From: Flavobacteriaceae bacterium
Lineage (GTDB): Bacteria > Bacteroidota > Bacteroidia > Flavobacteriales > Flavobacteriaceae
Direction of reading: 5' to 3'
DNA length: 54,221 bases
Assembly (NCBI GenBank): GCA_024644745.1
Contig: JAHEHF010000011.1
Location: 1-54,221, forward strand
A model generated the notes under the pieces. The model worked only from the letters and a program-made list of their open reading frames with translations, was not told the DNA's origin and ran no database searches. A program made the position numbers and the translations under genes. Below are positions 37,842 through 53,346 of the stretch, piece by piece (position 1 is the first letter of the stretch; every line of letters starts with the position of its first letter).

Positions 37842-38300
37842 TCAGGATGGACCCAAGCCGAATACATATGTTAATTTAGCCTTAAGATATTTAAAAAAAT
37901 ACTCAAAATTGCCATTAAACCATATGGCCAGGACGAATACAAGATACAGAGTCCATAAAGGAACCACATCGACATCAAGGTAAGTCGATACCAGCAGTAA
38001 TGAAAGGGCAAGCAATGTCATGAGTCCTGCAAACACTGTTTTTTTTCCTTTGTTGTTCATCAGGATCAAAATAAGGATGACAGCACCGAGTAAGGGTCTT
38101 AAATGTTTGAAGTAAGGGGCTAACTGGCTGCCTTCCACATCAAAAAACAATAAAGCCGCGCCGGCATATGCTCCAATACACAAGGGGCATTTTGGCAGTA
38201 AAATTATCAATAATGTGGTCATAAACGAGCTGATACTATTCACTTTTTCAGCAGGTTTATTATTGATTTGTTTAGATTTGCAGCATGCGGTTTTTGACAT
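37842..38300 (-). CDS. Small membrane protein with Cys motifs (MerC-like)
   Basis: 152-residue membrane protein with about four hydrophobic helices. It starts MSKTACCKSKQ, giving a vicinal Cys pair, and the first helix contains LLPKCPLCIGAYAGAALL, a CxxC inside the membrane. These features recall MerC/MerT-like metal-handling proteins, though sequence similarity is only a visual impression. It is divergent from xdhC at the edge of the CO dehydrogenase island. A role in moving copper or another soft metal is possible but unproven. Confidence 0.6.
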   Translation of the reverse strand: MSKTACCKSKQINNKPAEKVNSISSFMTTLLIILLPKCPLCIGAYAGAALLFFDVEGSQLAPYFKHLRPLLGAVILILILMNNKGKKTVFAGLMTLLALSLLLVSTYLDVDVVPLWTLYLVFVLAIWFNGNFEYFFKYLKAKLTYVFGLGPS

Positions 38301-38466: not shown

Positions 38467-39573
38467 ATGAAAGAAATAAAAAATATTTTGGAATTGGTTC
38501 AGGCCAGGGAATCGTCTCATGAAAAATTTGCTATTGCTCAGGTTGTTAACGTTGAAGGATCATCCTACAGAAGGGAAGGAGCCAGAATGATTGTTTTCGA
38601 ATCCGGAATTTTTGAAGGAGGCATCAGTGGAGGATGCCTGGAGGGAGATACCTTGAAACGATCCCAGTTGGCCATATTGAAACAAGAACCATCTCTTGTC
38701 ACTTATGACACTTCTAAAGAACATGAAATCGGTGTCAGTCTGGGTTGTAATGGAGTGATTGATGTTCTTATGATCCCTGTCACCCCCAAGTCGGATACTT
38801 TGAGAATTTTGAAAAAATGTGCTTCGGAAAGAAGATCGCATGTTATAGTTACAATTACTTCAGTAAAAGATCCTCAGGAATCCTTGAAGCTGGGAAGCAG
38901 TTTTTACTTCAATACAAAAAGCAAAGTTTTAGAACAAATGCCTGAGTCAAAATTCAAAAGATTTGTCATGGACTCCATCGGTTTGGTCATAAATAACGGT
39001 CGCTCAGAAAAATTTCATTATGAATCTTCAGAATTGGAAGCCGGTGTCTATATTGAATTAATTCCTGCCCCATTTCACCTGGCTATCTACGGTGATAATT
39101 ATGATGTCTACCCCATGCTTGAGTTTGCCAAAGTACTGGATTGGGAAATCAGCTTGGTTGGCAATATGCAAAAACTCACCAAAGGAAAGATTCAGTCGGT
39201 TCAAAATATTTATCACAAGGGTTTTGAAGAAAAGCCACAAATTGACGACCGGACAGCAATTATCCTGATGGCCCATGATTTTAAAACTGATAGTGCCAAT
39301 CTGAAAGAAGCCCTTAAAAGCCCGTCACCTTATATAGCATCTCTGGGTCCAAAAAAGCGCTTTGATAAAATGATGAAGACTTTTGAGGAACAAGGAATGG
39401 TTTTGTCAGAAGAAGATAAAGAAAGGATATATGCGCCAAGCGGGCTTGAAATTGGAGCCAATACTCCTGAAGAAATAGCCATGAGCATATTTTCAGAAAT
39501 ATTAAGTGTATTTTCAGGTAAAAAAGGTGGAATGCTGAAATATAAAAGTGGCCCGATCCATGACAGAAATTAG
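38467..39573 (+). CDS. XdhC/CoxI-family molybdenum cofactor maturation protein
   Basis: 368-residue XdhC-family protein. The N-terminal XdhC/CoxI domain shows VNVEGSSYRREGARM and EGGISGGCLEGD. The C-terminal half is the XdhC Rossmann domain, ending with GLEIGANTPEEIAMSIFSEIL. XdhC proteins bind molybdenum cofactor, protect its terminal sulfur and hand it to the apo-enzyme; they cooperate with a cysteine desulfurase. Here the cysteine desulfurase gene is convergent, with 3 bases between the stops, and the CO dehydrogenase genes follow. A second XdhC-domain protein (coxF) ends the cox operon. Confidence 0.9.
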   Translation: MKEIKNILELVQARESSHEKFAIAQVVNVEGSSYRREGARMIVFESGIFEGGISGGCLEGDTLKRSQLAILKQEPSLVTYDTSKEHEIGVSLGCNGVIDVLMIPVTPKSDTLRILKKCASERRSHVIVTITSVKDPQESLKLGSSFYFNTKSKVLEQMPESKFKRFVMDSIGLVINNGRSEKFHYESSELEAGVYIELIPAPFHLAIYGDNYDVYPMLEFAKVLDWEISLVGNMQKLTKGKIQSVQNIYHKGFEEKPQIDDRTAIILMAHDFKTDSANLKEALKSPSPYIASLGPKKRFDKMMKTFEEQGMVLSEEDKERIYAPSGLEIGANTPEEIAMSIFSEILSVFSGKKGGMLKYKSGPIHDRN

Positions 39574-39576
39574 TTT

Positions 39577-40761
39577 TTAAATTGAATTTCTGCGTTCCCA
39601 AAGAATATTATTTTCACGCAATGCATTGACCTGTTTGCCCACAATTTCAATGGCTTGTACAACATCTTTTTCGGTAGTCTCTTTTCCAAGGCTAAATCGA
39701 AGAGATGAAAATGCCAGTGCAGGATCCAAACCCATGGCAGTAAGAACATGTGAAGGATTTTTAGAGGCCGTATTGCAAGCAGATCCATTTGAAACTGCAA
39801 TATCCTTGCTCAAAGCGCGTAACAGATCCGCGCCATTGACATAAGGAATTGAAATATTGCAAGTGTTGGGCAGCCTCGGGGCCGAATTTCCATTGGAACT
39901 GGCCATTTCGATATTGAGCAAACCTTCTTCTAACATGTCCCTGAGACGGGTCAACCTGATTTTTTCTTTTTCCAGGTTGATGCAACACAATTCAATGGCT
40001 TTAGCCAATCCTGTGATACCAGTTGAGTTTATTGTGCCACCTCGCCATCCTTTTTGCTGGCCACCACCTTGTATGCAACTTTGCAATACTCCTGAGCCAT
40101 TTTTATAATTGCAGTATACCATGCCCATGCCTTTAGGACCATAAATTTTATGGGCTGAAAAGCATGCAAAATCTACCGAGTCAAATAGAATTTTCAGGTC
40201 AATTTTGCCAAGTGCCTGGGTGGCATCGGAAAAAAGAAAAATGTTTTGATCCTTAATGATATTGGCAATTTCCTTTATAGGTTGGATTACTCCTGTTTCA
40301 TTATTGGCATACATGATTGAAATAAGAATGGTTTCCGGTCTGATCGCTGATTCTAATTGGTTCAGATCTATCAAACCATTGGCATCGACATCCAGATAGG
40401 TAACTGAAACGCCTTCGTATCTTTCCATGAATGCACAGGTATCCAAGACTGCTTTATGCTCTGATTTACAAGTGATAATATGATTTCCAGCGGGTTTATA
40501 CTTCTTGCAAAAACTTTTTAAAATCATATTGATACCTTCGGTTGAGCCAGAGGTATAAATGATGTCATCGGCAGAAATTTGAAGCCTGTCTGCAATGGAT
40601 TGGGTTGAAATATCTACGGCTTCTTTGGCAATCCAGCCATATGCATGATGGATGCTGGAAGGATTGCCAAAGTTTTCAGTAAAAAAAGGAAGCATCGCAT
40701 CCAAAACTATTTTGTCACAGGGGGTAGTTGCATTATAATCAAAATAAAGTTTTTTTTTCAT
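39577..40761 (-). CDS. Cysteine desulfurase (NifS/IscS-like)
   Basis: PLP enzyme that takes sulfur from cysteine as a protein persulfide. The 394 residues have FDYNATTPCD at the N-terminus, YTSGSTEGINM, the cofactor Lys in FSAHKIYGPKGMG and the persulfide Cys in SNGSACNT. The active loop and HVLTAMG follow the NifS/IscS group. In this position, beside xdhC and cox genes, the likely job is sulfuration of the molybdenum cofactor of CO dehydrogenase rather than general Fe-S assembly; no iscU, sufU or hesB gene is near. Confidence 0.92.
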   Translation of the reverse strand: MKKKLYFDYNATTPCDKIVLDAMLPFFTENFGNPSSIHHAYGWIAKEAVDISTQSIADRLQISADDIIYTSGSTEGINMILKSFCKKYKPAGNHIITCKSEHKAVLDTCAFMERYEGVSVTYLDVDANGLIDLNQLESAIRPETILISIMYANNETGVIQPIKEIANIIKDQNIFLFSDATQALGKIDLKILFDSVDFACFSAHKIYGPKGMGMVYCNYKNGSGVLQSCIQGGGQQKGWRGGTINSTGITGLAKAIELCCINLEKEKIRLTRLRDMLEEGLLNIEMASSNGNSAPRLPNTCNISIPYVNGADLLRALSKDIAVSNGSACNTASKNPSHVLTAMGLDPALAFSSLRFSLGKETTEKDVVQAIEIVGKQVNALRENNILWERRNSI

Positions 40762-41313: not shown

Positions 41314-42180
41314 ATGATTCCTTCAAAATTTACCTACCATAAGGCAACATCATTACAAGATGCAATTGCTTTATCACAAGAACTTGGGGAAGAAGCAAAA
41401 TACATGTCTGGAGGACATAGTTTGCTACCCATGATGAAACTGAGATTTGCTTCTCCTGAACATATAATTGATATCAGCAAGATAGAGGGCCTTTCCTACA
41501 TCAAAGAAGATGGAGATTATTTAAAAATTGGGGCCCTGACGACCCAGTCTGAAATGGAATACGATGATTTGATCCGGGAAAAATATCCTATTTTGTCGGA
41601 TGCCATCAAATTAACCGCTGATCCTTCTGTTAGAAATGTAGGAACCATTGGAGGCAATATTGCCCATGGAGATGCAGCGAATGACCAACCGGCTCTTATG
41701 CTTGCCATGCGTGCAAAGATTATCGCACAAGGTGCCGACGGACAGAAATCAATTTCCATAGATGACTTTTTTCATGGATTTTACATGACAGCTTTGGAGC
41801 CTTCTGATGTCCTTGTAGAGATTCAGATTCCAAAAGCAAAAAAGGGAAGCGGCGGTGCCTACCATAAGGTTGAAAGAAAAGTAGGGGATTATGCCACTGC
41901 TGGAGTCGCAGTTCATGTAGAAATGGATGATGGTATCTGTAAGGAAATTGGTATCGGGCTCACCAATGTTAGTGCCGTTCCCATGCGCCTGGAAAGAGGT
42001 GAGGAGTTATTGAGAGGAAAAAAAATAACGGAGGAACTTATTGCCCAGGCAGGTGCCATGGCAAGTGAAGATTGTGAGCCTACTTCAGATTTGAGAGGTT
42101 CAGAGGCTTACAAGAGATCCATAGTAAATACGATTACGCAACGAATGATCCGTTTGGCAATAGAACGTTCAGAACATTAA
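41314..42180 (+). CDS. coxM: Aerobic CO dehydrogenase, medium (FAD) subunit
   Basis: FAD subunit that passes electrons from the Fe-S subunit to the quinone pool. The 288 residues begin with [18 protein letters not shown], and the FAD-binding motifs are [13 protein letters not shown] near residue 32 and [15 protein letters not shown] near residue 110. The open frame continues upstream to a TTG at 41239, but the ATG at 41314 matches the N-terminus of the family and is used here. It is the first gene in the M-S-L order that marks form I CO dehydrogenases; coxS follows 13 bases later. Confidence 0.93.
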
Positions 42181-42193
42181 AAACAAGAAAAAA

Positions 42194-42679
42194 ATGAAAC
42201 ACAAAATAACACTTAAGATAAATGGAGAAAGCGTTACTGCTGAAGTAGATTCTCGTTTGCTTCTTGTACATTTTATAAGGGAGAATTTAGACTTAACCGG
42301 AACCCACATTGGGTGCGATACATCAAATTGTGGTGCTTGCACCATTCTTTTAGATGGTAAATCAGTGAAATCATGCACCTATCTGGCTGTCAGAGCTGAT
42401 GGGGCAGAAATCACTACGATAGAAGGTATTGCGGCAGAGGGAACCAACCATCCTATGCAACAGGCCTTTCATGATCAACACGGTTTGCATTGCGGATTTT
42501 GCACTCCGGGAATGGTGATACGCTCAATCGATTTGCTGAAGCACAATCCCAATCCTACGGATGAGGAAATTCGCTGGGGAATTTCAGGAAATTTGTGCCG
42601 ATGCACCGGTTATAATAATATCGTTAAGGCGGTGCAACAGGCAGCCAAGGAAATGCAGAAAGAATCACAATCGGTCTAA
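42194..42679 (+). CDS. coxS: Aerobic CO dehydrogenase, small (2Fe-2S) subunit
   Basis: Electron-transfer subunit with two [2Fe-2S] clusters. The N-terminal plant-type cluster is bound by C41, C46, C49 and C61 ([10 protein letters not shown]...SC). The C-terminal helical cluster is bound by C100, C103, C135 and C137 (HCGFC...NLCRCTGY). The 161-residue length matches CoxS. It sits between coxM and coxL with short gaps (13 and 20 bases). Confidence 0.96.
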
Positions 42680-42699
42680 CCTCTAAAAATCACAATATT

Positions 42700-45060
42700 A
42701 TGTTTAAATGTAAAACATCACCAGAGGTAGGCGGAATGGGTCACTCTGTAAAAAGGAAAGAAGATGCAAGGTTCTTGCATGGAAAAGGAAATTATGTCGA
42801 TGACGTTAAGTTGCCGGGTCAACTTACCATGGTGATGGTAAGAAGCCCTTATGCTTATGCCAAAATAAAAGGAATCAACAAGGAGAAGGCTCTGGCTATT
42901 CCAGGAGTTTTAGCTGTGATAACCGGCTATGATCTGGCCGAATTCAATTTACATTGGATGCCAACTTTGCTGTCTGATACGCAAATGGTGTTGCCAACCG
43001 ACACGGTTATGCATCAATCACAGGAAGTTTGTGCTGTGATTGCAACAGACAGGTATATTGCCGTAGATGGCGCTGAAGCTGTTGAAGTGGACTACGAGCC
43101 AATGCAGGCCATAGTGGATCCTTTCAAGGCTTTAGACAAGGACGCGCCCCTCTTAAGACCTGACAAAGAAGGACAAAAGGACAATCAAATATACCATTGG
43201 GAACGCGGTAATCGTGAAAAGACCGACGAGGTGATTGCAAAGGCAGATGTTGTTGTCAAAGAACGAATCTACTTACCCAGAATTCATGTGGCTTCTATTG
43301 AAACATGTGGCTGTGTGGCCTCTTATGACAAGGATACTCAAAAGTTATTGGTTTATTTGACAACCCAGGCCCCTCATGCGATCAGAACTGTTGTTGCCCT
43401 GGTAGCGGGTCATGTTGGTCTTTCAGAGGAAAAAATCAGGATCATATCGCCTGATATTGGTGGTGGCTTTGGAGGAAAGGTTCCGGTTTATCCTGCCTAT
43501 GTAGTGGCCATTGCGGCAACTTTCTTAATCGGAAAACCAGTAAAGTGGATTGAAGATCGTTCTGAAAACCTGGTGAATGGATTTGCACGGGATTATCATA
43601 TGGATTGTGAATTAGCGGCCACCAAAGAAGGAAAAATTCAAGCTTTTAAGGTTTCGACCCTGGCCGATCACGGTTATACTGATTCTTCAGCCAACCCTTC
43701 AAAATACCCAACGGGTATGTTTTCTATTTGTACGGGCTCATATGATTATGAACATGCTTTTGCAGAATTAGACGCCGTATATACCAACAAAGCGCCTGGT
43801 GGAGTGGCATACCGATGTTCTTTCAGGGTTACTGAAGCCGTTCATGCTATAGAAAGAATGGTTGATAAATTGGCTGCAGAAATTAAAAAAGATCCGGCTC
43901 AGCTGCGTTTTGAAAATTTCATTAAGAAAGAGCAATTTCCTTACAGCTCTCCGTTAGGATGGAGTTATGATAGTGGAGATTACAAAGCCACACTTGAAAA
44001 AGCCATGGAGATGATAGGCTATGATGATTATAAAAAAGAGCAGGCTGAGAAGCGAGCTCAAGGAAAGTTGATGGGGATAGGCCTTTGTACTTTTACTGAA
44101 GTAGTTGGTGCCGGTCCATCGAAAGACTTCGATATCTTGGGAATAGCCATGTTTGATAGTGCTGAAATTCGGGTGCACCCGACGGGTAAAGCATTGGCAC
44201 GATTCGGAACCAAGTCTCAAGGACAGGGTCATGAAACAACTTATGCTCAGATATTGGCAGAAGAATTAGGAATTCCTTATACCGATATTGAAATTGATGA
44301 AGGAGATACAGATACAGCACCTTATGGTCTGGGTACATATGCGAGCAGGAGCACACCAACCGCAGGAGCTGCCGCCGCAATAGCTGCAAGAAAATTGCGT
44401 GACAAAGGAAAGAAAATTGCAGCGCATTTGTTAGAGGTAAGTGAAGAAGATATAGAATGGGAAGTTGGTAAATACAGTGTAAAAGGCGCTCCAGAAAAGT
44501 CAAAGACAATTCAGGACGTAGCTTTTGCCGCTTATACGAATATTCCACCGGGAATGGAACCTGGTTTTGAAGCCACGCACTATTATGATCCTCCAAATTT
44601 AACATTTCCCAATGGCGCATATATATGTGTTGTCGAGGTTGAAAAGGAAACCGGAGCGATTGATGTAAAAAGATTTGTTGCGATTGATGACTGTGGCAAT
44701 ATTATTAATCCCATGATAGTCGAGGGTCAGGTACATGGTGGACTGACACAGGGAATTGCTCCTGCAATGTATGAAGGTATCGAATACGATGACGAAGGAA
44801 ATGTGCTTAACGGAACATTCATGGATTATCTGGTGCCCACTGCGGTAGAATCACCTCATTGGGAAACGGGCCATACCATAACGCCTTCACCGCATCATCC
44901 TCTGGGAGCCAAAGGAGTGGCAGAATCACCAACAGTAGGTGCACCACCAGCCATTGCAAATGCAATTATTGATGCACTGGCGCCTTTGGGGATCAAACAT
45001 TTGGACATTCCCATTACCCCGGCAAAGGTATGGGAGGCCATTCAGGCGCATTCAAAATAA
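42700..45060 (+). CDS. coxL: Form I aerobic CO dehydrogenase, large (Mo-Cu) subunit
   Basis: Catalytic subunit that oxidises CO at a [CuSMoO2] centre with molybdopterin cytosine dinucleotide. In 786 residues it shows the molybdopterin loop DIGGGFGGKVPVYP, the form I active-site signature AYRCSFR at residues 370-376 with C373 as the copper ligand, and the base-acting Glu (E742) in GAKGVAESPTVG. Form II enzymes and xanthine dehydrogenases lack the AYxCSFR motif, so genuine CO dehydrogenase activity is the best reading. The gene follows coxM-coxS in form I order and precedes coxG-coxD-coxE-coxF. Confidence 0.96.
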   Translation: MFKCKTSPEVGGMGHSVKRKEDARFLHGKGNYVDDVKLPGQLTMVMVRSPYAYAKIKGINKEKALAIPGVLAVITGYDLAEFNLHWMPTLLSDTQMVLPTDTVMHQSQEVCAVIATDRYIAVDGAEAVEVDYEPMQAIVDPFKALDKDAPLLRPDKEGQKDNQIYHWERGNREKTDEVIAKADVVVKERIYLPRIHVASIETCGCVASYDKDTQKLLVYLTTQAPHAIRTVVALVAGHVGLSEEKIRIISPDIGGGFGGKVPVYPAYVVAIAATFLIGKPVKWIEDRSENLVNGFARDYHMDCELAATKEGKIQAFKVSTLADHGYTDSSANPSKYPTGMFSICTGSYDYEHAFAELDAVYTNKAPGGVAYRCSFRVTEAVHAIERMVDKLAAEIKKDPAQLRFENFIKKEQFPYSSPLGWSYDSGDYKATLEKAMEMIGYDDYKKEQAEKRAQGKLMGIGLCTFTEVVGAGPSKDFDILGIAMFDSAEIRVHPTGKALARFGTKSQGQGHETTYAQILAEELGIPYTDIEIDEGDTDTAPYGLGTYASRSTPTAGAAAAIAARKLRDKGKKIAAHLLEVSEEDIEWEVGKYSVKGAPEKSKTIQDVAFAAYTNIPPGMEPGFEATHYYDPPNLTFPNGAYICVVEVEKETGAIDVKRFVAIDDCGNIINPMIVEGQVHGGLTQGIAPAMYEGIEYDDEGNVLNGTFMDYLVPTAVESPHWETGHTITPSPHHPLGAKGVAESPTVGAPPAIANAIIDALAPLGIKHLDIPITPAKVWEAIQAHSK

Positions 45061-45165
45061 AAGCGAGCAAGACCGGGCTTAGTTTGCGATTGTAAATGCG
45101 AAAACAGAATAATATGTCAATATCCTTTTGGAAATTAAAATCGGGTATTGTAAAAAAACAATAAA

Positions 45166-45636
45166 ATGAAAACAAGTTTAAATAAGTCCTTTGAAGTGCC
45201 ACAGGGCACAGAATTGGTATGGGAGCACCTCATTGATCCTGAAAAAATAATGGATTGTGTACCTGGTGTTTCTATTGATGAAAAAGTAGGCGATAATCAC
45301 TACAAGGGAAAAGTTGGAATGAAATTCGGACCGATGGGCGTCCAGTACGATGCTGATATTTTTTACAATGAAATTGATCCGGAGAACCGAAAGATCATCA
45401 TCTCCGGAAATGGAGTTGATTCAAAAGGTAAAGGAAACGCCGAGATGAAAATGGCCATAGATGTTAGCGAGCTTGATGGGGGAGGTGTAAAAATGGATGC
45501 TGCCATGGATGTGACCATCAATGGTAAAATTGCCCAATTTGGCTCACGCCTAATCGATACGGTTTCGAATCAGTTGTTTAAACAATTCGTTTCGAATTTT
45601 TCAAAGAAGTTGGCAGCTGCTGAGGCTGCAGCTTAA
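45166..45636 (+). CDS. coxG: CoxG-like SRPBCC protein
   Basis: 156-residue SRPBCC-fold protein starting SLNKSFEVPQGTELVWEHLIDPEKIMDCVPG, the characteristic opening of CO dehydrogenase subunit G. It has been linked to membrane association of the enzyme and to electron delivery to quinone. Larger CoxG proteins carry a C-terminal linker and membrane anchor; this one stops after the SRPBCC helix at LAAAEAAA. It lies 105 bases after coxL and just before a terminator-like hairpin. Confidence 0.9.
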   Translation: MKTSLNKSFEVPQGTELVWEHLIDPEKIMDCVPGVSIDEKVGDNHYKGKVGMKFGPMGVQYDADIFYNEIDPENRKIIISGNGVDSKGKGNAEMKMAIDVSELDGGGVKMDAAMDVTINGKIAQFGSRLIDTVSNQLFKQFVSNFSKKLAAAEAAA

Positions 45637-45658
45637 ACAAGTTTATTAAATATAATCA

Positions 45659-45688
45659 AAAAGCTATGCCCATTCGCGCATAGCTTTT
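45659..45688 (+). terminator. Terminator-like hairpin between coxG and coxD
   Basis: AAAAGCTATGC pairs with GCATAGCTTTT around the 8-base loop CCATTCGC. The stem ends 6 bases before the TTG start of coxD, so it could act as an attenuator after coxMSLG and also mask the coxD ribosome-binding region. Confidence 0.65.
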
Positions 45689-45693
45689 ATAAA

Positions 45694-46575
45694 TTGAAGC
45701 TGTTGAATAAAGACATTGATGACCTTATAAAAGATTTTTATGAGCATGATTATATCCTGAACGAAGAACTTGCCACATCAATATTTCTGCTTAAGAATTT
45801 GGAAAAGCCTTTACTTTTGGAAGGTAATCCGGGAGTCGGGAAAACCATGCTGGCTCAGGCTTTGGCAAAACACATGGCTACCAGGCTCATTCGTTTGCAG
45901 TGCTATGAAGGCCTGGACGTGAATACGACCATTTACGAATGGAATTATCAAAAACAACTGCTTCATATCAAACTCTTCGAGCAGGAAAAGGATAAGAAAA
46001 AACTGGGGAATCAAATATTTGGAATGGACTATATTTTAAAACGTCCCTTATTGCAATCTATAAGTTCAGAGCGTCCGGTGGTACTGTTGATTGATGAAAT
46101 CGACCGTGCCGATGAAGAATTTGAGGCCTATTTGTTGGAATTGCTTTCAGATTTTCAGATAAGCATACCCGAATTAGGCACCATCAAAGCTGTATCGAAA
46201 CCTTGGGTCATTTTAACATCCAATCGGAGCAGAGAATTGAGTGATGCCCTGAGAAGAAGGTGTTTATATCACTGGGTGGACTTTCCATCAAAATCCAAAG
46301 AAATTGACATTATCGCCAAAAAGATGCCAAACATAGATCAGGAACTGGCATCTCAGGTGGTTAACTTTATTCATAACCTGCGTAAATCTAGTCTTCATAA
46401 ACCACCGGGCATTGCAGAATCTCTTGACTGGGCAAAAACTTTGTTGCTCATGAATGTCAAGAACATCACTGATGAAATTGTGCACAATACTATTGGCAGT
46501 GTGCTGAAACACAAAGAGGATGTAGAATTTGTGCGCAACAAAAGTGTTCAGGAATTTCTGTACCCTATTGATTAG
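45694..46575 (+). CDS. coxD: CoxD, AAA+ ATPase for CO dehydrogenase maturation
   Basis: MoxR-type AAA+ ATPase of 293 residues. Walker A is EGNPGVGKTML near residue 43, Walker B is VVLLIDEIDRADEEFEAY, and the sensor/arginine region is ILTSNRSRELSDALRRRC. In Oligotropha, CoxD is needed to assemble the Cu-S-Mo centre, notably its sulfuration. The start is a TTG; the N-terminal segment before Walker A (FYEHDYILNEELATSIFLLKN) is conserved in the family, so the start must be at or near here. Together with the VWA protein coxE it forms the usual MoxR-VWA pair. Confidence 0.9.
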   Translation: MKLLNKDIDDLIKDFYEHDYILNEELATSIFLLKNLEKPLLLEGNPGVGKTMLAQALAKHMATRLIRLQCYEGLDVNTTIYEWNYQKQLLHIKLFEQEKDKKKLGNQIFGMDYILKRPLLQSISSERPVVLLIDEIDRADEEFEAYLLELLSDFQISIPELGTIKAVSKPWVILTSNRSRELSDALRRRCLYHWVDFPSKSKEIDIIAKKMPNIDQELASQVVNFIHNLRKSSLHKPPGIAESLDWAKTLLLMNVKNITDEIVHNTIGSVLKHKEDVEFVRNKSVQEFLYPID

Positions 46576-46695
46576 TTCAAACAGAATTAATAAGGAACAA
46601 GAAATCAAATATTTAAATGTTCATATTCGGTCTTGTTATTTGTCAAATAGGTTCTGGTAAGAATTTTGATATCGTAAAAAGGAATTTAATTCATA

Positions 46696-47829
46696 ATGAA
46701 AGAAGTATCCAAAACATTTAAAGAAAGGCTGATCGACTTTACTGCGTATTGTCGGGAGCGTCAATTTGTTTTGGGCCCGCAAGAAACAAAGGATTCATTT
46801 GCTATTGCGTCAATGGGTTATGCAATGGACCGCAAGCTGTTCCAGTACAGTTTAAAAGCCATTTACTGCAAGCGCAAGGAGCATTTTGATCGTTTTGATG
46901 AGATGTTCGACCGTTTTTGGAGTCGGTATTATGAAGAGAAATTAGAGAAACGAAAAAAGAAGCTTCAGCAACTTAAAAAGGAGCCGGATACCGCCACGGT
47001 TATCTTTTTGGGGGCAAAATTCAATGTTCCCAAAAAAGAAAACAAAATAGACGCCAAACAGACCAAAGGCGCCAATGAATCCATAAGGCTTAGGATGACT
47101 GATTTTTCGAAGGTTGATATTGCTGATAAAGAACGATTGGAAGAATTGGCAGAGGAGCTTTTTCATCAAATGAGCATGCGCTTCAAGCGCAGACTTGAAA
47201 ATTCGAACAAGGGAAATATAGACATAAGGCGGACCATGCGGCATGGATTGGATAAAGGAGGCTGGTTATTGGATCTGGCGCATCGTAAAAAGCGCAAAGA
47301 AAAGCGTAAAGTTGTGTTTATATTGGATGTAAGCGGTTCAATGGACACCTATAGTTATTACCTTTTGCGCTACGTTATGGTCTTAAAAAAATATTTTAAA
47401 AGCCTGGAATTTTTTACCTTTAGTACGCAATTAACTCATGTGACGCCTTTGCTAAGGCAAAACAATGAACAGGAAATTTTGAAACAGATTGGAAAAAATG
47501 TGCATTCCTGGTCGAGCGGAACGAAGATAGGAGCGTCTTTAACAGATTTTCTTACGGTCTATGGCAACAAATTTTTGAGCCAGAAGCATATTGTGGTCAT
47601 ATTAAGTGACGGACTGGAAACCGGAAGTGTTACCGTTCTGAAAGAGGCTGTCCGGACGATTAAAAGGAAATGCAAGACCCTTATCTGGTTGAACCCCTTG
47701 AAAGGAATGGAAGGTTACCGCCCCATTCAAAAAGGTATTGTCAATGTTATGCCGCATTTGGACGCGTTTGAGTCGGCACACAATCTGGATAGTCTTATGA
47801 AACTGGAAAAATTATTGATCGATGTTTAG
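46696..47829 (+). CDS. coxE: CoxE, VWA-domain CO dehydrogenase maturation protein
   Basis: 377-residue VWA protein of the CoxE group. The first ~190 residues are highly basic and helical. The VWA domain begins at KVVFILDVSGSMDTYS, with a MIDAS DxSxS motif starting near residue 211, and ILSDGLETGS follows. It partners CoxD and, in known systems, helps introduce copper to the active site. The gene follows coxD after 120 bases and its last 8 bases overlap coxF. Confidence 0.9.
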   Translation: MKEVSKTFKERLIDFTAYCRERQFVLGPQETKDSFAIASMGYAMDRKLFQYSLKAIYCKRKEHFDRFDEMFDRFWSRYYEEKLEKRKKKLQQLKKEPDTATVIFLGAKFNVPKKENKIDAKQTKGANESIRLRMTDFSKVDIADKERLEELAEELFHQMSMRFKRRLENSNKGNIDIRRTMRHGLDKGGWLLDLAHRKKRKEKRKVVFILDVSGSMDTYSYYLLRYVMVLKKYFKSLEFFTFSTQLTHVTPLLRQNNEQEILKQIGKNVHSWSSGTKIGASLTDFLTVYGNKFLSQKHIVVILSDGLETGSVTVLKEAVRTIKRKCKTLIWLNPLKGMEGYRPIQKGIVNVMPHLDAFESAHNLDSLMKLEKLLIDV

Positions 47830-48841
47830 TGAATTGACCATAAAATTACGGGAATATCTTGATAAAGGTGAGAATTTGGCAGTAGCCCAGGTGATTGATC
47901 GAGCCGCACCAAGTTCAAGCAAGGTGACTGATAAAGCCATTATTTTGGAAACGGGTGAACTTATCGGCTGGATTGGCGGAGGCTGTGTAAGAGGAATTGT
48001 CATAAAGGAAGCTCTCGAGGTTATCAAAACCAAAAGATATAGAAAAGTTCGAATTTCTCCTGAAGGAGGATTGAGCAGCAGCAATAATATTAAAAATTAC
48101 ATTATGTCTTGTCAAAGTGGAGGAACAGTAGAAGTAATCATCGAACCTGTGTTTCCGTTACCTGAATTGATAGTGGTTGGAAAATCAAACATTGCCAGAA
48201 AATTGGCAGCCCTTGGTGCTACAGCCGATTTTAAAGTAACTGCCATGGCCCGGGATGCCGACCAGCATATGTTTCCTTTGGCATCGGTTGTGAGAGAAAA
48301 TGTAAGTTTTGAAGAGATAAAGAATTTCAACAATGCATATATTGTTGTTGCAACCCAGGGTGAAGATGATGAGGAAAATGTTGAAAAAGCGCTTTCTACA
48401 ACAGCTAAATATGTGGGTTATGTTAGCAGTTCCAAAAAATCAGATTTAATAAGAAAATATCTGAGATCAAAAAATATTCCAAGTGAGCGAATCAAGGATT
48501 TAAAAAGCCCTGTTGGTTTTGACATCAATGCCAAACTTGCGGGAGAAGTTGCGATCAGTATTTTGGCTGAAATAGTTGAGGATTTTAGAAATAAGGGGAA
48601 AGATGTTAGCGATTGTTGCGGTTCAAAAGCTGAGGCAATGGAAGAGCCGGTTCCTGATCAAAATATAAATGAAAAGTTCACGGAAGAATATTACATCAAC
48701 CCGGTTTGTGGTGTTCCGGTATCTAAAAAGAGTCCGAAGCACATAATAGACTATCAAGGGGAAAAGGTTTATTTTTGCTGTGACGGTTGCAAAGTAAGTT
48801 TCGAAAAAAACCCCTCTCAGTATATTCCTGAAAAACTTTAA
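47822..48841 (+). CDS. coxF: CoxF: XdhC-domain protein fused to a C-terminal YHS domain
   Basis: 339-residue protein with two parts. Residues ~1-260 form an XdhC/CoxI domain (AQVIDRAAPSSSKVTDKAI, GWIGGGCVRG) plus the XdhC Rossmann domain. After a CCGSKAE linker, residues ~288-339 are a YHS metal-binding domain: NPVCGVPV with C296, and YFCCDGCKVSFEKNPSQY with C319, C320 and C323. YHS domains occur in copper ATPases and metal sensors, fitting copper delivery to the CO dehydrogenase active site. It overlaps coxE by 8 bases and closes the operon. Confidence 0.9.
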   Translation: MFSELTIKLREYLDKGENLAVAQVIDRAAPSSSKVTDKAIILETGELIGWIGGGCVRGIVIKEALEVIKTKRYRKVRISPEGGLSSSNNIKNYIMSCQSGGTVEVIIEPVFPLPELIVVGKSNIARKLAALGATADFKVTAMARDADQHMFPLASVVRENVSFEEIKNFNNAYIVVATQGEDDEENVEKALSTTAKYVGYVSSSKKSDLIRKYLRSKNIPSERIKDLKSPVGFDINAKLAGEVAISILAEIVEDFRNKGKDVSDCCGSKAEAMEEPVPDQNINEKFTEEYYINPVCGVPVSKKSPKHIIDYQGEKVYFCCDGCKVSFEKNPSQYIPEKL

Positions 48842-48902: not shown

Positions 48903-50339
48903 TTAGTTTACTATTCCAAGCACATTGTACAGGGTCGCCCTTGCTTTCAGGGTTTTCATATTCAACGAGTTTGCCTTTAAAGCTGTTTCCAATAATTTTT
49001 GTTCTCTGCTGTTGATAATGAACAATGAACTTTCTCCCAACTGGAACTTACGTTCTTCTGCGCGTACAAGTTCCTCATAATCTGATACAATTTTCTTTAC
49101 GAGCTGATTTTGTTCCTCTAAAGAAATAACCTCCGCCTGGGTGGCATCAATTTTGTTCTGTAGCATCAGGGAGGCAGAAATTCTTTCGTAGTTGGCATCC
49201 TGTAACTTTAGTTTTGAAAGCTTCAGATCGCCTCTCTCTTTACGAAGAAAGATTGGAAAGCTGAAATTTACCCCAACTTTGTAGTTGTTTGTGTTGAAAT
49301 TGTTGAAGTCATCTGCTTCCTGTGTCAATAAGTTGTACTGCAGGTCGATTTTAGGCAATAAATTGTTTCTTTTGAGTGCCCTATCTACCTCAAGCCCCTC
49401 CACTTTGGCAGAAATACTTCTTAATTTCGGGTGTTCGTTTAAGACATCAGGGTCTGCAGTAATGCCTTCCAAATAAAGCGATGAGGAAAGAATTTCTGAT
49501 TCGGGAAATTCGGGAACGACCTGATCTTGTATCAAAAGCGGCACCTCATTCAGCCATAAATAATTGCTTACTTTAAGGGAGGCCTTTGTACTTTTCAAGC
49601 GTGCCGCTTCCAGGTTCAGGTTCCTGTTCTGCACAATTATCTTTGCTTCAACTGAATCTATGGCAGCGGCTTCGCCTTCTTCCACATTTCGTTTGACACC
49701 CTCAAAACGGGTTTGTGCATTGGTCAAAAAATTCTTGTATATAGATTGCATCGTATGGGCTTCCAACCACTCAAAATAAGCCTTGCTCGCTTCGTAAATT
49801 AATTCATTTACAAGCAGATCTCGTTCAGCCGCAGACTGGTCCAGAAAAAAGCGGGCTTTTTTCAAAACAGCCATCCGGTCATTCATCAAAAGACCTTTGG
49901 CAAGGGAAACAGAAATTCCGGCGCTGAACAATCCGCCTTCGGGAACCGTGAGGCTGGGATCAAGATACTGCCCCGTATTATTTTCAAAGTTGGCTTTGAA
50001 TTCAACGCCATACCAGGTTGGAATTTTAAATGCGGCATTCAATTGATTGTAATATTCAGTAGACATAAATTCTTTTCGTGAGTAATCCACCTCGATTTTT
50101 GGATCAAAACCACCTCTTGAACGAAGTAAATTTGCCTCACCGGCACTGAGTTGCAGATTGGCTTGTTTGATGATCGGATGGTGCTGTTTCACATAGCCCA
50201 GATACTCCTCAAAGCTCAAGATCTGCGGAGACACTTCAGATTCATTCTGGGCTGTATTGATGTTCATTTCCTGTGCATTGCCAACATGATTAAATGCAAA
50301 GAACATCAGTACGGCAAATATTTTATATGGTCGTATCAT
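48903..50339 (-). CDS. TolC-family outer membrane efflux protein
   Basis: Outer-membrane channel of 478 residues. The Sec signal IFAVLMFFAFNHVGNAQ is cut near residue 22. The protein has the alternating long helices and strand pairs of TolC-like proteins, with coiled-coil stretches such as LKSTKASLKV and VISLEEQNQLVKKIVSDYEEL. It starts the base before the HlyD stop and is the last gene of the exporter operon. Substrate is unknown. Confidence 0.88.
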   Translation of the reverse strand: MIRPYKIFAVLMFFAFNHVGNAQEMNINTAQNESEVSPQILSFEEYLGYVKQHHPIIKQANLQLSAGEANLLRSRGGFDPKIEVDYSRKEFMSTEYYNQLNAAFKIPTWYGVEFKANFENNTGQYLDPSLTVPEGGLFSAGISVSLAKGLLMNDRMAVLKKARFFLDQSAAERDLLVNELIYEASKAYFEWLEAHTMQSIYKNFLTNAQTRFEGVKRNVEEGEAAAIDSVEAKIIVQNRNLNLEAARLKSTKASLKVSNYLWLNEVPLLIQDQVVPEFPESEILSSSLYLEGITADPDVLNEHPKLRSISAKVEGLEVDRALKRNNLLPKIDLQYNLLTQEADDFNNFNTNNYKVGVNFSFPIFLRKERGDLKLSKLKLQDANYERISASLMLQNKIDATQAEVISLEEQNQLVKKIVSDYEELVRAEERKFQLGESSLFIINSREQKLLETALKANSLNMKTLKARATLYNVLGIVN

Positions 50340-51686
50340 TTATTTAATCGATTTTTTGTTCAACTCAGGTTGATAATAGTTAGGGGGGAAGCCATTGAGC
50401 TGCCTCCAGAATTCATACCAGATCGGTACATCTTCAAGCAGTGCCATGGTATAAGCACCCGATCCCACCCTTATGCTTTCGGGCCATTCAACGTCATTTT
50501 GATCAGGAGCGATGAGTATCCTGAACTTTCCATTGTCACTGATGAATCTCTCGATCGCCACAACCTCCCCGCCATAGGTCCCGTAAGAAGCATTGGGCCA
50601 ACCACTGAAAAAGATTCCAGGCCATCCGTCAAACTGGATACGAACCTTTTCACCCAAGTGGATCAGGGGCAAATCAATGGGTTCAATATAGGTTTCAACG
50701 GCAAGTTCATAATCAGCAGGCATGATGCCGACAAGTTTTTCTCCCTCTTTGAAGGTTTCTCCAATACCGCCGAGGATCGCTTTATTGATGTAACCATTTT
50801 GAGGCGCCGTAATGTAAGACAGGGCATTTCTCATCTCGTAGTTCGTTGACTGATTTTCAAGTTTACTGACCTCAACCTGCGCTTCCAACTGATTCGATTC
50901 TGCTGTAAAACGATCGCTCTGGGATTTGGCGATCTTGTCTGAATATTCAGCCGAAATTCTGCCAATCTCAAATTGTGCGTTCAAAATTTCATTTTGACTG
51001 ATCAGCAACTGGTTCTCCTGTGCGATCAGTTTTGCCTGAGCCTCCTGAAGTTTTAATCCCTTTACTTCCACGTCAGTCATTGCCTTTAACCCTTCGCTGT
51101 GCAGTGTAACTGTCCTTTCGTACTGGCGGTTAATAATTGAAAGGTTGGTTTTAGCCGCCACAAAATCGATACTGTCACTTTGAACTTTGAACTTTGATTG
51201 TGCCAGCTTGTTTTTTGCCTGAGACAATTTTAGCTCACGCTCCTTTTCAAGGGCTTCAACCTGATTTTTTAGTGCGCTTATTTTTTCCTGATAAGATTGT
51301 ACAGAAAGATTTTTTGCATCACGTTGCTGCCTGGTTCGTTGGATGAGCATGGGATCCTGGTATTCATTTTTTATTTCAGATATAAAAAGAATGGTATCCC
51401 CTTTTTTTACAAAATCACCTTCCCTGACGAACCATTTCTCGATCCTTCCTGGGATGGTCGATTGTATGGTCTGTGGTCGCTGGTCGGGCATTAAGGTTGT
51501 TACATAGCCATTGCCTGTCACATTCTGCGTCCATGGAAGAAACATTATGACCAGCATGGTTATGGCAAAGACGCGTAAAAATCTGTTGAAGATTTTAAAG
51601 TGCCTTTTTTTTAGCGCCCCTTCGAATGACTTATATCCGTCAAGCGCCACTTTTTGATTGAGTTTGTTATGAGATATATTAAGCAT
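50340..51686 (-). CDS. HlyD-family membrane fusion (adaptor) protein
   Basis: 448-residue periplasmic adaptor. One N-terminal transmembrane helix (RVFAITMLVIMFLPW, near residue 38) precedes a biotinyl-lipoyl-like hairpin region (IPGRIEKWFVREGDFVKKGD), a long coiled coil at residues ~120-260, and a beta-barrel part with APQNGYINKAILGGIGETFKEGE. It connects the inner-membrane ABC protein to TolC. Its gene overlaps the ABC gene by 8 bases. Confidence 0.9.
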   Translation of the reverse strand: MLNISHNKLNQKVALDGYKSFEGALKKRHFKIFNRFLRVFAITMLVIMFLPWTQNVTGNGYVTTLMPDQRPQTIQSTIPGRIEKWFVREGDFVKKGDTILFISEIKNEYQDPMLIQRTRQQRDAKNLSVQSYQEKISALKNQVEALEKERELKLSQAKNKLAQSKFKVQSDSIDFVAAKTNLSIINRQYERTVTLHSEGLKAMTDVEVKGLKLQEAQAKLIAQENQLLISQNEILNAQFEIGRISAEYSDKIAKSQSDRFTAESNQLEAQVEVSKLENQSTNYEMRNALSYITAPQNGYINKAILGGIGETFKEGEKLVGIMPADYELAVETYIEPIDLPLIHLGEKVRIQFDGWPGIFFSGWPNASYGTYGGEVVAIERFISDNGKFRILIAPDQNDVEWPESIRVGSGAYTMALLEDVPIWYEFWRQLNGFPPNYYQPELNKKSIK

Positions 51687-53346
51687 TTTCGTTCTTTTTT
51701 AGGATGCCCTGTGGCAGGGTTAATATATGAGCGCATTTATTCTTCCAAATTGGATTTCCTGAGGACACAACGATGGCCCATGGATGAGAGTCATCGGTTA
51801 GATAGGAAACAATTTCCCTGGCCTCATTTGCCTCAAAATGTTCGAGGGGATCTTTAAGAAACAAGAGCCTTGGCTCATGAACAATCGCACGAGCAAGTAC
51901 AATCCGTTTTGAAATCGTATAAGGTATGTGTTGTCCTTGCGCGTACAACATGGTGTTTAGCCCATCGGGTTGTTTCTTTACAAAATTGATCAGGCCGATC
52001 CGCTTAATCACCTCATTTACACGTTCTGGAGTTATCGATGGGTTTCCAAAGGTGATGTTCTCTAAAATGGTACCTTCAAAGGGATATTGCTCGGGCAGTA
52101 CCTGACCAACATGACTTCGGTATATATTTGGTGAAATTCCCTTAATTGAGGTGTCATTGATATAAAGCGCTCCTGAAGTGGGCGACAGGATTCCGGATAG
52201 CAGTTTCAGTAAAGTTGTTTTTCCTGATCCTGATACCCCTTGCAGCAGAATGCGGTCTTTTTGAGCTATCGTCAGGTTGATGTTTTTCAACACTTCCTTG
52301 CCGTCCGGAGTGGTATAGGCTATTTCCTCCAGTTCAGCCTGAATTGGTTCCAGAGACTTAAACGGATCAATTCCTTCCTGATCCTCCAATTCCTTGTCAA
52401 CGACCTGTCCAATTTTTTCCAGGGACGTTAAAATATCATAAAATGTTTCCAGTCCACCAATCAGTTTTTCAACAGAGTTGATCACCAAAAGAATGATGAT
52501 CTCAGCAGCAACAAACTGACCAATATTCATTTGCTGATTCAATACAAGCAAGCCCCCAATGATCAACAATCCTGCAGTGACTAAAATTTTAAAACCAACC
52601 ATCTGTATAAATTGAACTATGAGGACTTTGAAATGGTTTTCTCTGGCGTCTAGATAGTTTTTGGTAAGTGTATCGTTGCGCGTCATGGCCAATGAAGTTT
52701 TACCGGAAAGTTTAAAGCTCAGCAGAGAGCGTGTAATTTCCTGTATCCAGTGGGCCACCTTGTACTTGTTCTTTGACTCGATCAAGCTCGTTTCAAGTCC
52801 TTTTTTTGCTGTGAACTTGAATACAGAATAAATCAATAGAATCAGTAACAATCCGTAAAGGATAAAAAACGGATGGTAGAAAGAGAGGAGCGTAATACCA
52901 AAGACAATCTGTAAAGAAGCCGCGGGAAAATCTATCAACACTTTTGGAAGGCCTTTTTGAACAGTTAATGTGTCAAAAAAACGATTGGCCAATTCCGGTG
53001 GATAATCCGTATCCAACTCACTGATTTTTATTTTTGGAAAGCGATAGACGAATTCAAAAGAAGCACGGGCGAATATTTTTTGCTGGATATTTTCAAGAAT
53101 TCGCAACTGCATCAATTGCAATGCGCCTTGAAACCCAACACCCAGAGTGACCAGTGCGACAAGTACGATCCATGAGGAGGAGATCTGAACGCCTTGAATC
53201 AGGTTGATGATGGCCTGAATACCAAGGGGTAGGGACAAGGCAACAAGACCTGCAAATATGGCATAATAAAATATCTGTTTGATATCTCGTTTATCTAGTT
53301 GCAACAGGTTGACAAAACGTTGCAGGGGTGACATGGTATTTTTCAT
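51679..53346 (-). CDS. ABC exporter (TMD-NBD fusion) with degenerate nucleotide-binding motifs
   Basis: 555-residue ABC protein without a C39 peptidase domain. A six-helix membrane domain (about residues 20-300) precedes a nucleotide-binding domain. Walker A is intact (GVSGSGKTTLLKLL), but the signature reads YTISKRIVLARAI instead of LSGGQ, Walker B reads LLFLKDPLEHF with Lys-Asp where Asp-Glu is expected, and the H-loop His is missing (IVVSSGNP). The domain can probably bind ATP but hydrolysis is doubtful. It heads the ABC-HlyD-TolC operon. Confidence 0.87.
   Translation of the reverse strand: MKNTMSPLQRFVNLLQLDKRDIKQIFYYAIFAGLVALSLPLGIQAIINLIQGVQISSSWIVLVALVTLGVGFQGALQLMQLRILENIQQKIFARASFEFVYRFPKIKISELDTDYPPELANRFFDTLTVQKGLPKVLIDFPAASLQIVFGITLLSFYHPFFILYGLLLILLIYSVFKFTAKKGLETSLIESKNKYKVAHWIQEITRSLLSFKLSGKTSLAMTRNDTLTKNYLDARENHFKVLIVQFIQMVGFKILVTAGLLIIGGLLVLNQQMNIGQFVAAEIIILLVINSVEKLIGGLETFYDILTSLEKIGQVVDKELEDQEGIDPFKSLEPIQAELEEIAYTTPDGKEVLKNINLTIAQKDRILLQGVSGSGKTTLLKLLSGILSPTSGALYINDTSIKGISPNIYRSHVGQVLPEQYPFEGTILENITFGNPSITPERVNEVIKRIGLINFVKKQPDGLNTMLYAQGQHIPYTISKRIVLARAIVHEPRLLFLKDPLEHFEANEAREIVSYLTDDSHPWAIVVSSGNPIWKNKCAHILTLPQGILKKNENA

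Follow-up and report, generated by a model that had tools for sequence, protein, structure and literature searches.

A form I carbon monoxide dehydrogenase operon from a Flavobacteriaceae genome and the likely metal-binding tail of its CoxF protein

How does copper enter the molybdenum–copper (Mo–Cu) site of an aerobic carbon monoxide (CO) dehydrogenase? In the literature we found, this step is modelled from a single organism, using a copper motif and a phytase idea, both of them hardly conserved. Here we describe a locus that bears on the question: the cox operon at positions 41,314–48,841 of a 54,221-nucleotide stretch of Flavobacteriaceae DNA (contig JAHEHF010000011.1, assembly GCA_024644745.1), hereafter called the window. 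The window is the whole of one contig (C99) of a 3.14 Mb draft genome with a completeness of 95.8%; the operon is a complete form I Mo–Cu CO dehydrogenase (CODH) operon, of a kind already known from Bacteroidota. Its less expected feature is the tail of CoxF—a C-terminal, likely metal-binding domain, common in the related operons that we examined and absent from the CoxF of the laboratory model. A copper-type domain on CoxF that is nearly restricted to form I, and that has apparently been swapped between two unrelated folds, would make copper loading directly testable.

The seven frames of the operon, in the order coxM-S-L-G-D-E-F, are open and lie on the + strand (Table 1). This arrangement had been given in a preliminary description of the same DNA, and it is borne out by the open reading frames (ORFs) and by Pfam, with all seven proteins scoring above the cut-off for their expected domains. 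Among them, CoxL alone reaches a curated-level NCBIfam match (TIGR02416, aerobic carbon-monoxide dehydrogenase large subunit; 1207 bits against a cut-off of 991); this score and the seven Pfam matches mean that a chance match is not an issue. The closest PDB entries to CoxL are the CO dehydrogenases 8uem, 1ffu, and 1n5w. The motif AYRCSFR at CoxL residues 370–376 and E742 within GVAESP, both described earlier, are present in the translation; A370, Y371, C373–R376, and E742 are invariant across nine aligned form I CoxL proteins, and R372 is variable. From known structures, we take Cys373 to be the copper ligand and Glu742 to be the catalytic glutamate. The eight cluster cysteines described for CoxS are also found, with Fer2 and Fer2_2 domains.

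The preliminary description had named CoxL phylogeny as one check, and the form I assignment holds. Scores assigned 104 of the 111 rows in our tree to form I and 7 to form II-like proteins; the tree was built in a quick IQ-TREE run with the Shimodaira–Hasegawa-like approximate likelihood ratio test (SH-aLRT) as its sole support measure, without bootstrap and with a warning from the tool about long branches. Form I and form II-like CoxL separate with a support of 100. The window CoxL lies inside an 11-row Flavobacteriaceae clade (support 100), which is nested in a 28-row Bacteroidota clade (support 91, unstarred) whose neighbours are of SAR324 type. This clade does not take in four Bacteroidota rows belonging to a single genus (L028–L031; L and G numbers are our labels for loci and genomes). 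The earlier reading that the cell can oxidise CO is upheld in qualified form: given the place of CoxL within form I and the presence of coxD, E, F, and G, the encoded enzyme very probably has CO activity. The source genome (95.8% complete) yielded no RuBisCO large chain, which fits the proposed use of CO as a supplementary energy source. Published work already records form I coxL in Bacteroidota (PMC6794299, Cordero 2019; PMC13203968), Mo-CODH in Bacteroidota (PMC13240472), and Bacteroidota metagenome-assembled genomes (MAGs) with CO dehydrogenases (PMC10305171); a further study reports CoxL from a sediment community with Eudoraea MAGs and, in the portion cited, does not assign it to Eudoraea (PMC8443593).

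The preliminary description did not mention the YHS domain of CoxF, nor the XdhC-like and cysteine desulfurase genes upstream of the operon. CoxF, encoded directly after coxE, is a protein of 339 amino acids with an XdhC fold (best PDB folds 2we7, 2we8, and 3on5) and a C-terminal Pfam YHS domain (PF04945; 46.3 bits against a cut-off of 30.3). The AlphaFold2 model has a mean predicted local distance difference test (pLDDT) score of 90.2, falling below 50 at residues 262–276 and 278–281 and returning to 83–93 in blocks from residue 291 onward; in the model, the YHS domain thus folds as a separate unit, tethered by a flexible linker. Three cysteines of the metal-type ligand set (C296, C319, and C323) are present, and the first ligand position is Asn293—across the 83 CoxF proteins defined below, this position is Asn in 25 and Asp in 49. 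A PDB search with the YHS domain alone gave only weak matches, the best being zinc fingers, and a search with the CoxF profile matched a phenol hydroxylase through the YHS part (E 4e-5). In the literature searched, with most subscription papers outside that search, we found no description of an XdhC/CoxF protein joined to YHS or HMA; the architecture is probably already visible in domain databases.

Several variations on this architecture were seen. The linker leading to the YHS domain is variable, apart from a CCG motif (CCGS, CCGG) that is shared by the window CoxF (around residues 264–268) and those of L036, L044, L067, L081, and L092; from its sequence, this motif is a possible second metal site. 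Tandem YHS domains end the CoxF of L086, L087, and L186, and in a Nitrososphaerota MAG (L111:3877-5625, +) a MobA-like nucleotidyltransferase is fused in frame to CoxF-YHS.

To describe the spread of the tail we used a set of 83 CoxF proteins. It leaves aside copies truncated by contig ends (L089, L093, L095, and L112), eight more loci whose stretch lacks CoxF (L022, L041, L057, L066, L070, L074, L088, and L098; in five of these genomes CoxF-YHS is encoded at another place), Nonomuraea L037 (whose CoxF has neither a clean start nor the domain), second CoxF-like copies, and the plasmid loci L137–L143 (five alphaproteobacterial and two betaproteobacterial); L061, which has CoxF-YHS and no unbroken CoxL, is counted among the 83 and left out of the tree. 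By Pfam, 76 of the 83 carry YHS, five carry HMA, and two carry neither (L034 and L060). Mapped onto the 104 form I CoxL rows, with L083 and three degenerate copies assigned by hand, YHS is found at the locus in 76, elsewhere in the genome in five, and in degenerate form in three (all Deinococcota); five rows have HMA, eight have no tail, and seven are not assessable. Hence 84 of 97 assessable rows have YHS, counting the three degenerate copies and the five located elsewhere. The HMA-type proteins come from five Bacteroidota genomes (G062, G067, G108, G116, and G236), with HMA at the YHS position, and the eight rows with neither domain comprise six Alphaproteobacteria, Nonomuraea L037, and L060 (labelled Deltaproteobacteria). 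Both Betaproteobacteria read, Paraburkholderia and Caballeronia, have YHS. A chance or local fusion is ruled out by this spread over many bacterial and archaeal phyla.

The CoxL tree suggests a history for the tail. The haloarchaeal row L036, the earliest branch among form I CoxL and one of the long branches warned of, has YHS, and the tail-less Alphaproteobacteria form one clade (support 100); with YHS in the first-branching row, an early origin followed by loss in Alphaproteobacteria is the simplest reading. The HMA rows stand at two places on the tree—the forks between them are weak (80–91), so that one or two exchanges between YHS and HMA are possible.

Is the tail a general feature of XdhC proteins, or does it belong to form I? 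None of 30 companion XdhC proteins from form I loci has YHS or HMA. Among 395 sampled Bacteroidota genomes, the eight with form I coxL (the source genome included) are the same eight with a strong CoxF match (three YHS, five HMA), and 10 other XdhC matches (E <= 1e-12) have neither domain. On plasmids, an XdhC match occurs in 68 records, of which 19 are form I; matches covering at least 80% of the query—a coverage that includes YHS—number six, all form I, against 0 of the 49 other records. The remaining 13 form I plasmid records stop short of YHS, one being from Nonomuraea and 12 alphaproteobacterial.

The Chloroflexota sample (201 genomes) yielded 43 CoxL matches at the set limit, 42 of which have the CSFR core (41 as AYxCSFR, G905 as AFRCSFR); the 43rd (G803) reads AYRGAGR. 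All 42 of these form I genomes carry CoxF-YHS: in 38 the alignment spans the cysteines of YHS, and in G831, G856, G866, and G733 the domain was established by reading the sequence. A further 109 Chloroflexota genomes have an XdhC match and no form I; 62 of these are among the matches listed, and one of the 62 (G802) reaches YHS, in a gene truncated by the contig start, while the other 47 have matches all weaker than E ~4e-19. Alignment reach can miss a YHS domain that lies behind a long linker—the YHS-bearing G523 and G562 aligned only to the XdhC body—and stretches from form I-free genomes were therefore read directly: YHS was found in 1 (again G802) of 39 stretches from 38 Chloroflexota genomes. 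In 249 genomes from the phylum of an Actinomycetes MAG (L117), form I occurs in G451, G523, and G562, each with YHS, and direct reading of 20 stretches from 18 form I-free genomes of this sample found no YHS. The companions and the Bacteroidota, plasmid, Chloroflexota, and Actinomycetes samples rule out XdhC-YHS as a general XdhC feature; in the samples tested, the YHS/HMA tail of CoxF is nearly restricted to form I genomes. The tail could also serve to mark genuine form I systems, and could aid heterologous CODH expression.

What might the tail do? In the mechanism we propose, the operon would let an aerobic flavobacterium in which no RuBisCO was detected feed its respiration with electrons from CO oxidation. 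Flavin adenine dinucleotide (FAD) would sit on CoxM and a pair of [2Fe-2S] clusters on CoxS, and CoxL would hold the molybdopterin site, its copper bound by Cys373; CoxD, working with the neighbouring desulfurase and the XdhC-like protein, would sulfurate the molybdenum, after which CoxE and CoxF would insert Cu(I). In this last step the XdhC body of CoxF would dock on the enzyme, and the linker-tethered YHS domain would hold copper and hand it over, much like a tethered metallochaperone. Taken as a whole, a form I operon with a two-part, copper-delivering CoxF is the explanation we consider quite likely; that the YHS/HMA domain itself binds copper and delivers it is a prediction in which our confidence is moderate. 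We lean only slightly towards the broadest version—that CoxF is a dedicated copper metallochaperone whose tethered YHS domain probably dates from early in the history of form I CODH, was swapped for HMA once or twice in Bacteroidota, and was lost in Alphaproteobacteria, so that the published copper-insertion model would have been built on a protein without the module.

Copper delivery draws on several lines of evidence. Two unrelated metal-binding domains, YHS and HMA, occupy the same position on CoxF, and HMA is best known from Cu(I) transfer. In Oligotropha carboxidovorans, coxE and coxF mutants yield CODH lacking copper, and CoxF has been proposed as the copper supplier (PMC4240915); a YHS-bearing adenylyl cyclase of Mycobacterium phlei is activated by Cu2+, whereas its isolated catalytic domain is not (PMC4626032). 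Other observations pull the opposite way. The M. phlei domain has an Asp ligand where the window has Asn293, the YHS domain of toluene-4-hydroxylase shows no metal (PMC4626032), and three Deinococcota copies lack the first cysteine and are changed at the Cys319 position. Alphaproteobacterial CoxF works without the tail (six read; the 12 plasmid records align to the XdhC body alone), so the domain is not required in principle. L060 and Nonomuraea L037 show only tail-less CoxF, and a second CoxF-like protein without the domain occurs in seven form I loci. In the literature searched, we found no measurement of copper binding, function, or CO uptake for a Bacteroidota CoxF.

A different role, which we consider unlikely, would make the YHS/HMA tail a sensor of copper or a safety valve that gates CoxF (or holds zinc), with copper donated from the XdhC body via Cys97. 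The M. phlei domain has been interpreted as a sensor rather than a donor (PMC4626032), Alphaproteobacteria manage without a tail, and Cys97, invariant in 83/83 CoxF, is the cysteine of the copper site proposed for O. carboxidovorans. However, Cys97 aligns with an invariant cysteine (Cys94) of the companion XdhC proteins, and for this reason looks like a general XdhC residue rather than a copper-specific one, although it may still have a role in copper transfer; the exchange of YHS for HMA is also easier to reconcile with delivery than with sensing. Far less probable, in our view, is an aldehyde- or glyceraldehyde-type hydroxylase in place of a CO dehydrogenase, or a decaying operon: the best NCBIfam models for CoxM and CoxS are indeed of glyceraldehyde dehydrogenase, below cut-off, and form I coxL is patchy within the genus, but CoxL scores only 585 bits with the glyceraldehyde model, the active-site motif has been kept, every frame is open and has conserved counterparts in relatives, and coxG-D-E-F are present. 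A form II enzyme or other hydroxylase is ruled out by the TIGR02416 score, the motif, and the tree.

Two of the genes upstream of coxM may serve the supply of sulfur to the molybdenum site. An XdhC homologue lies upstream of coxM in 7/7 Flavobacteriaceae loci whose stretch reaches that far, and the cysteine desulfurase adjoins cox in the window and in eight Flavobacteriaceae loci; its nearest paralogue in the same genome is 33% identical. Weaker desulfurase homologues occur in five other cox loci: L059, L060, L108, and L113 (SAR324 or labelled Deltaproteobacteria), and L072 (Neomarinimicrobiota). The XdhC–NifS4 pair of Rhodobacter sulfurates the molybdenum cofactor (Moco) (PMC2997495), and by analogy we infer that the XdhC-like protein and desulfurase of the window may perform the same task; sulfur donation by the adjacent desulfurase is, we think, somewhat favoured. 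Moco genes (mobA-, moeB-, moeA-, and moaA-like, named from translations) flank cox in the two Flavobacteriaceae relatives whose surroundings were read, L044 (1–6000 and 16286–16900) and L040 (800–5300), and not in the window; in L044 a MocA-like NTP (nucleoside triphosphate) transferase follows coxF. At 37842–38300 (-) the window encodes a small protein, membrane-like in sequence, that contains the motifs CCK and LLPKCPLC and matches no Pfam family. Six Flavobacteriaceae loci have a homologue upstream of cox, which in L040 and L044 adjoins a moeA-like gene; judged by its sequence, the protein is a possible metal-handling partner.

Table 1. Features of the cox locus in the window (positions from the first nucleotide of the window).
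Feature	Position	Strand	Evidence and remarks
XdhC-family protein without metal domain (CoxI-like companion)	38467..39573	+	Pfam XdhC_CoxI, XdhC_C
NifS/IscS-like cysteine desulfurase, putative sulfur donor for Mo site	39577..40761	-	Pfam Aminotran_5; NCBIfam IscS/NifS best, below cut-off
coxM, FAD subunit	41314..42180	+	Pfam FAD_binding_5, CO_deh_flav_C; listed ORF opens at upstream TTG, 41239
coxS, 2x[2Fe-2S] subunit	42194..42679	+	Pfam Fer2, Fer2_2; eight Cys
coxL, form I catalytic subunit	42700..45060	+	TIGR02416 1207 bits; PDB matches; tree
AYRCSFR codons (CoxL 370-376)	43807..43827	+	Read from translation; alignment
CoxL Glu742 codon, in GVAESP	44923..44925	+	Read from translation; alignment
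coxG	45166..45636	+	Pfam COXG
coxD, AAA+ ATPase	45694..46575	+	Pfam AAA; TTG start in ORF call
coxE, VWA protein	46696..47829	+	Pfam VWA_CoxE
coxF, XdhC body joined by a disordered linker to a C-terminal YHS domain	47822..48841	+	Pfam XdhC_CoxI, XdhC_C, YHS; AlphaFold2
CoxF YHS domain, residues 292-336 (Cys296, Cys319, Cys320, Cys323)	48695..48829	+	Pfam; alignment; AlphaFold2

The coxD ORFs of five relatives begin with a matching Leu-Asn-Lys, with no ATG nearby. The right flank (48903–53346, -) holds likely export genes of the TolC-HlyD-ABC type, named from translations; a comparison with 15 relative loci, none extending beyond 10 kb, found no counterpart.

The genome is of Flavobacteriaceae type, near Eudoraea and Robiginitalea, in agreement with the phylum given in the preliminary description (Bacteroidetes). 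The named-genome CoxL scan gave 581 confirmed places, the best 80 of which were used—a sample biased toward relatives of the window and non-independent. Within these best 80 of 581, the nearest CoxL proteins are those of Flavobacteriaceae MAGs, Eudoraea spp., and Robiginitalea aurantiaca M39 (92–95% identity, with M39 at 95%), followed by Saprospiraceae, Chitinophagaceae, and other Bacteroidota (75–78%). The window also encodes two proteins that we take to be Bacteroidota markers, an LpxC-FabA-like-domain fusion and a response regulator joined to PglZ. A binning artefact or wrong phylum is ruled out by the presence of the operon in same-genus genomes and in named Flavobacteriaceae and by its G+C content, which matches that of the remaining window (0.41 against 0.40). 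The operon may or may not be a recent island: its G+C content does not deviate, and form I coxL is patchy in genus and phylum, being present in 4/22 same-genus genomes (the source included, and many of the 22 incomplete) and missing from three that are 99–100% complete. Contigs C44, C1, and C106 of the source genome (G000) carry further CoxL-related molybdoenzyme genes (24–35% identity), and a Eudoraea sp. Ww469 MAG has two form I CoxL copies (L041 and L067) on two contigs, possibly a mixed bin.

Known systems resemble the locus in different parts. The Rhodobacter capsulatus XdhC–NifS4 system likewise pairs an XdhC protein with a cysteine desulfurase for Moco sulfuration (PMC2997495), but it matures a copper-free xanthine dehydrogenase, and the window pairing is proposed from gene neighbourhood. 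The M. phlei adenylyl cyclase shares the plan of a catalytic body with a C-terminal, three-cysteine YHS domain (PMC4626032); it differs in making cyclic AMP and in having Asp rather than Asn at the first ligand position.

The laboratory model, Oligotropha (Afipia) carboxidovorans OM5 (pHCG3, L034), has the same coxMSL order, AYRCSFR motif, CoxD/E/F/G homologues, and a second XdhC-type protein, and its CoxL is 57% identical to that of the window. In contrast, its CoxF has 280 amino acids and no YHS, CoxG follows CoxF rather than CoxL, and MHYT proteins flank the cluster; an incomplete gene table of 26 kb contains no cysteine desulfurase, and comparison with that of the window gave no match at this locus. 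For its CoxF, a putative copper site (MCPSHGTM) and a phytase motif (RHGxRxP) have been proposed (PMC4240915). CPSHG occurs in 2/90 CoxF (Afipia and Bradyrhizobium) and RHGxR in 1/90; the window CoxF is not of this subtype, and of the proposed motifs it keeps only the cysteine. Other Bacteroidota loci—Robiginitalea aurantiaca M39, Eudoraea spp., Flavihumibacter, Niastella vici, and Saprospiraceae MAGs—share coxMSL and coxD-E-F with the window and have CoxF-YHS wherever locus or genome could be assessed. The Flavobacteriaceae among such loci also share its xdhC and nifS neighbours, whereas L025, L026, L047, and L049–L051 differ in having the companion xdhC after coxF.

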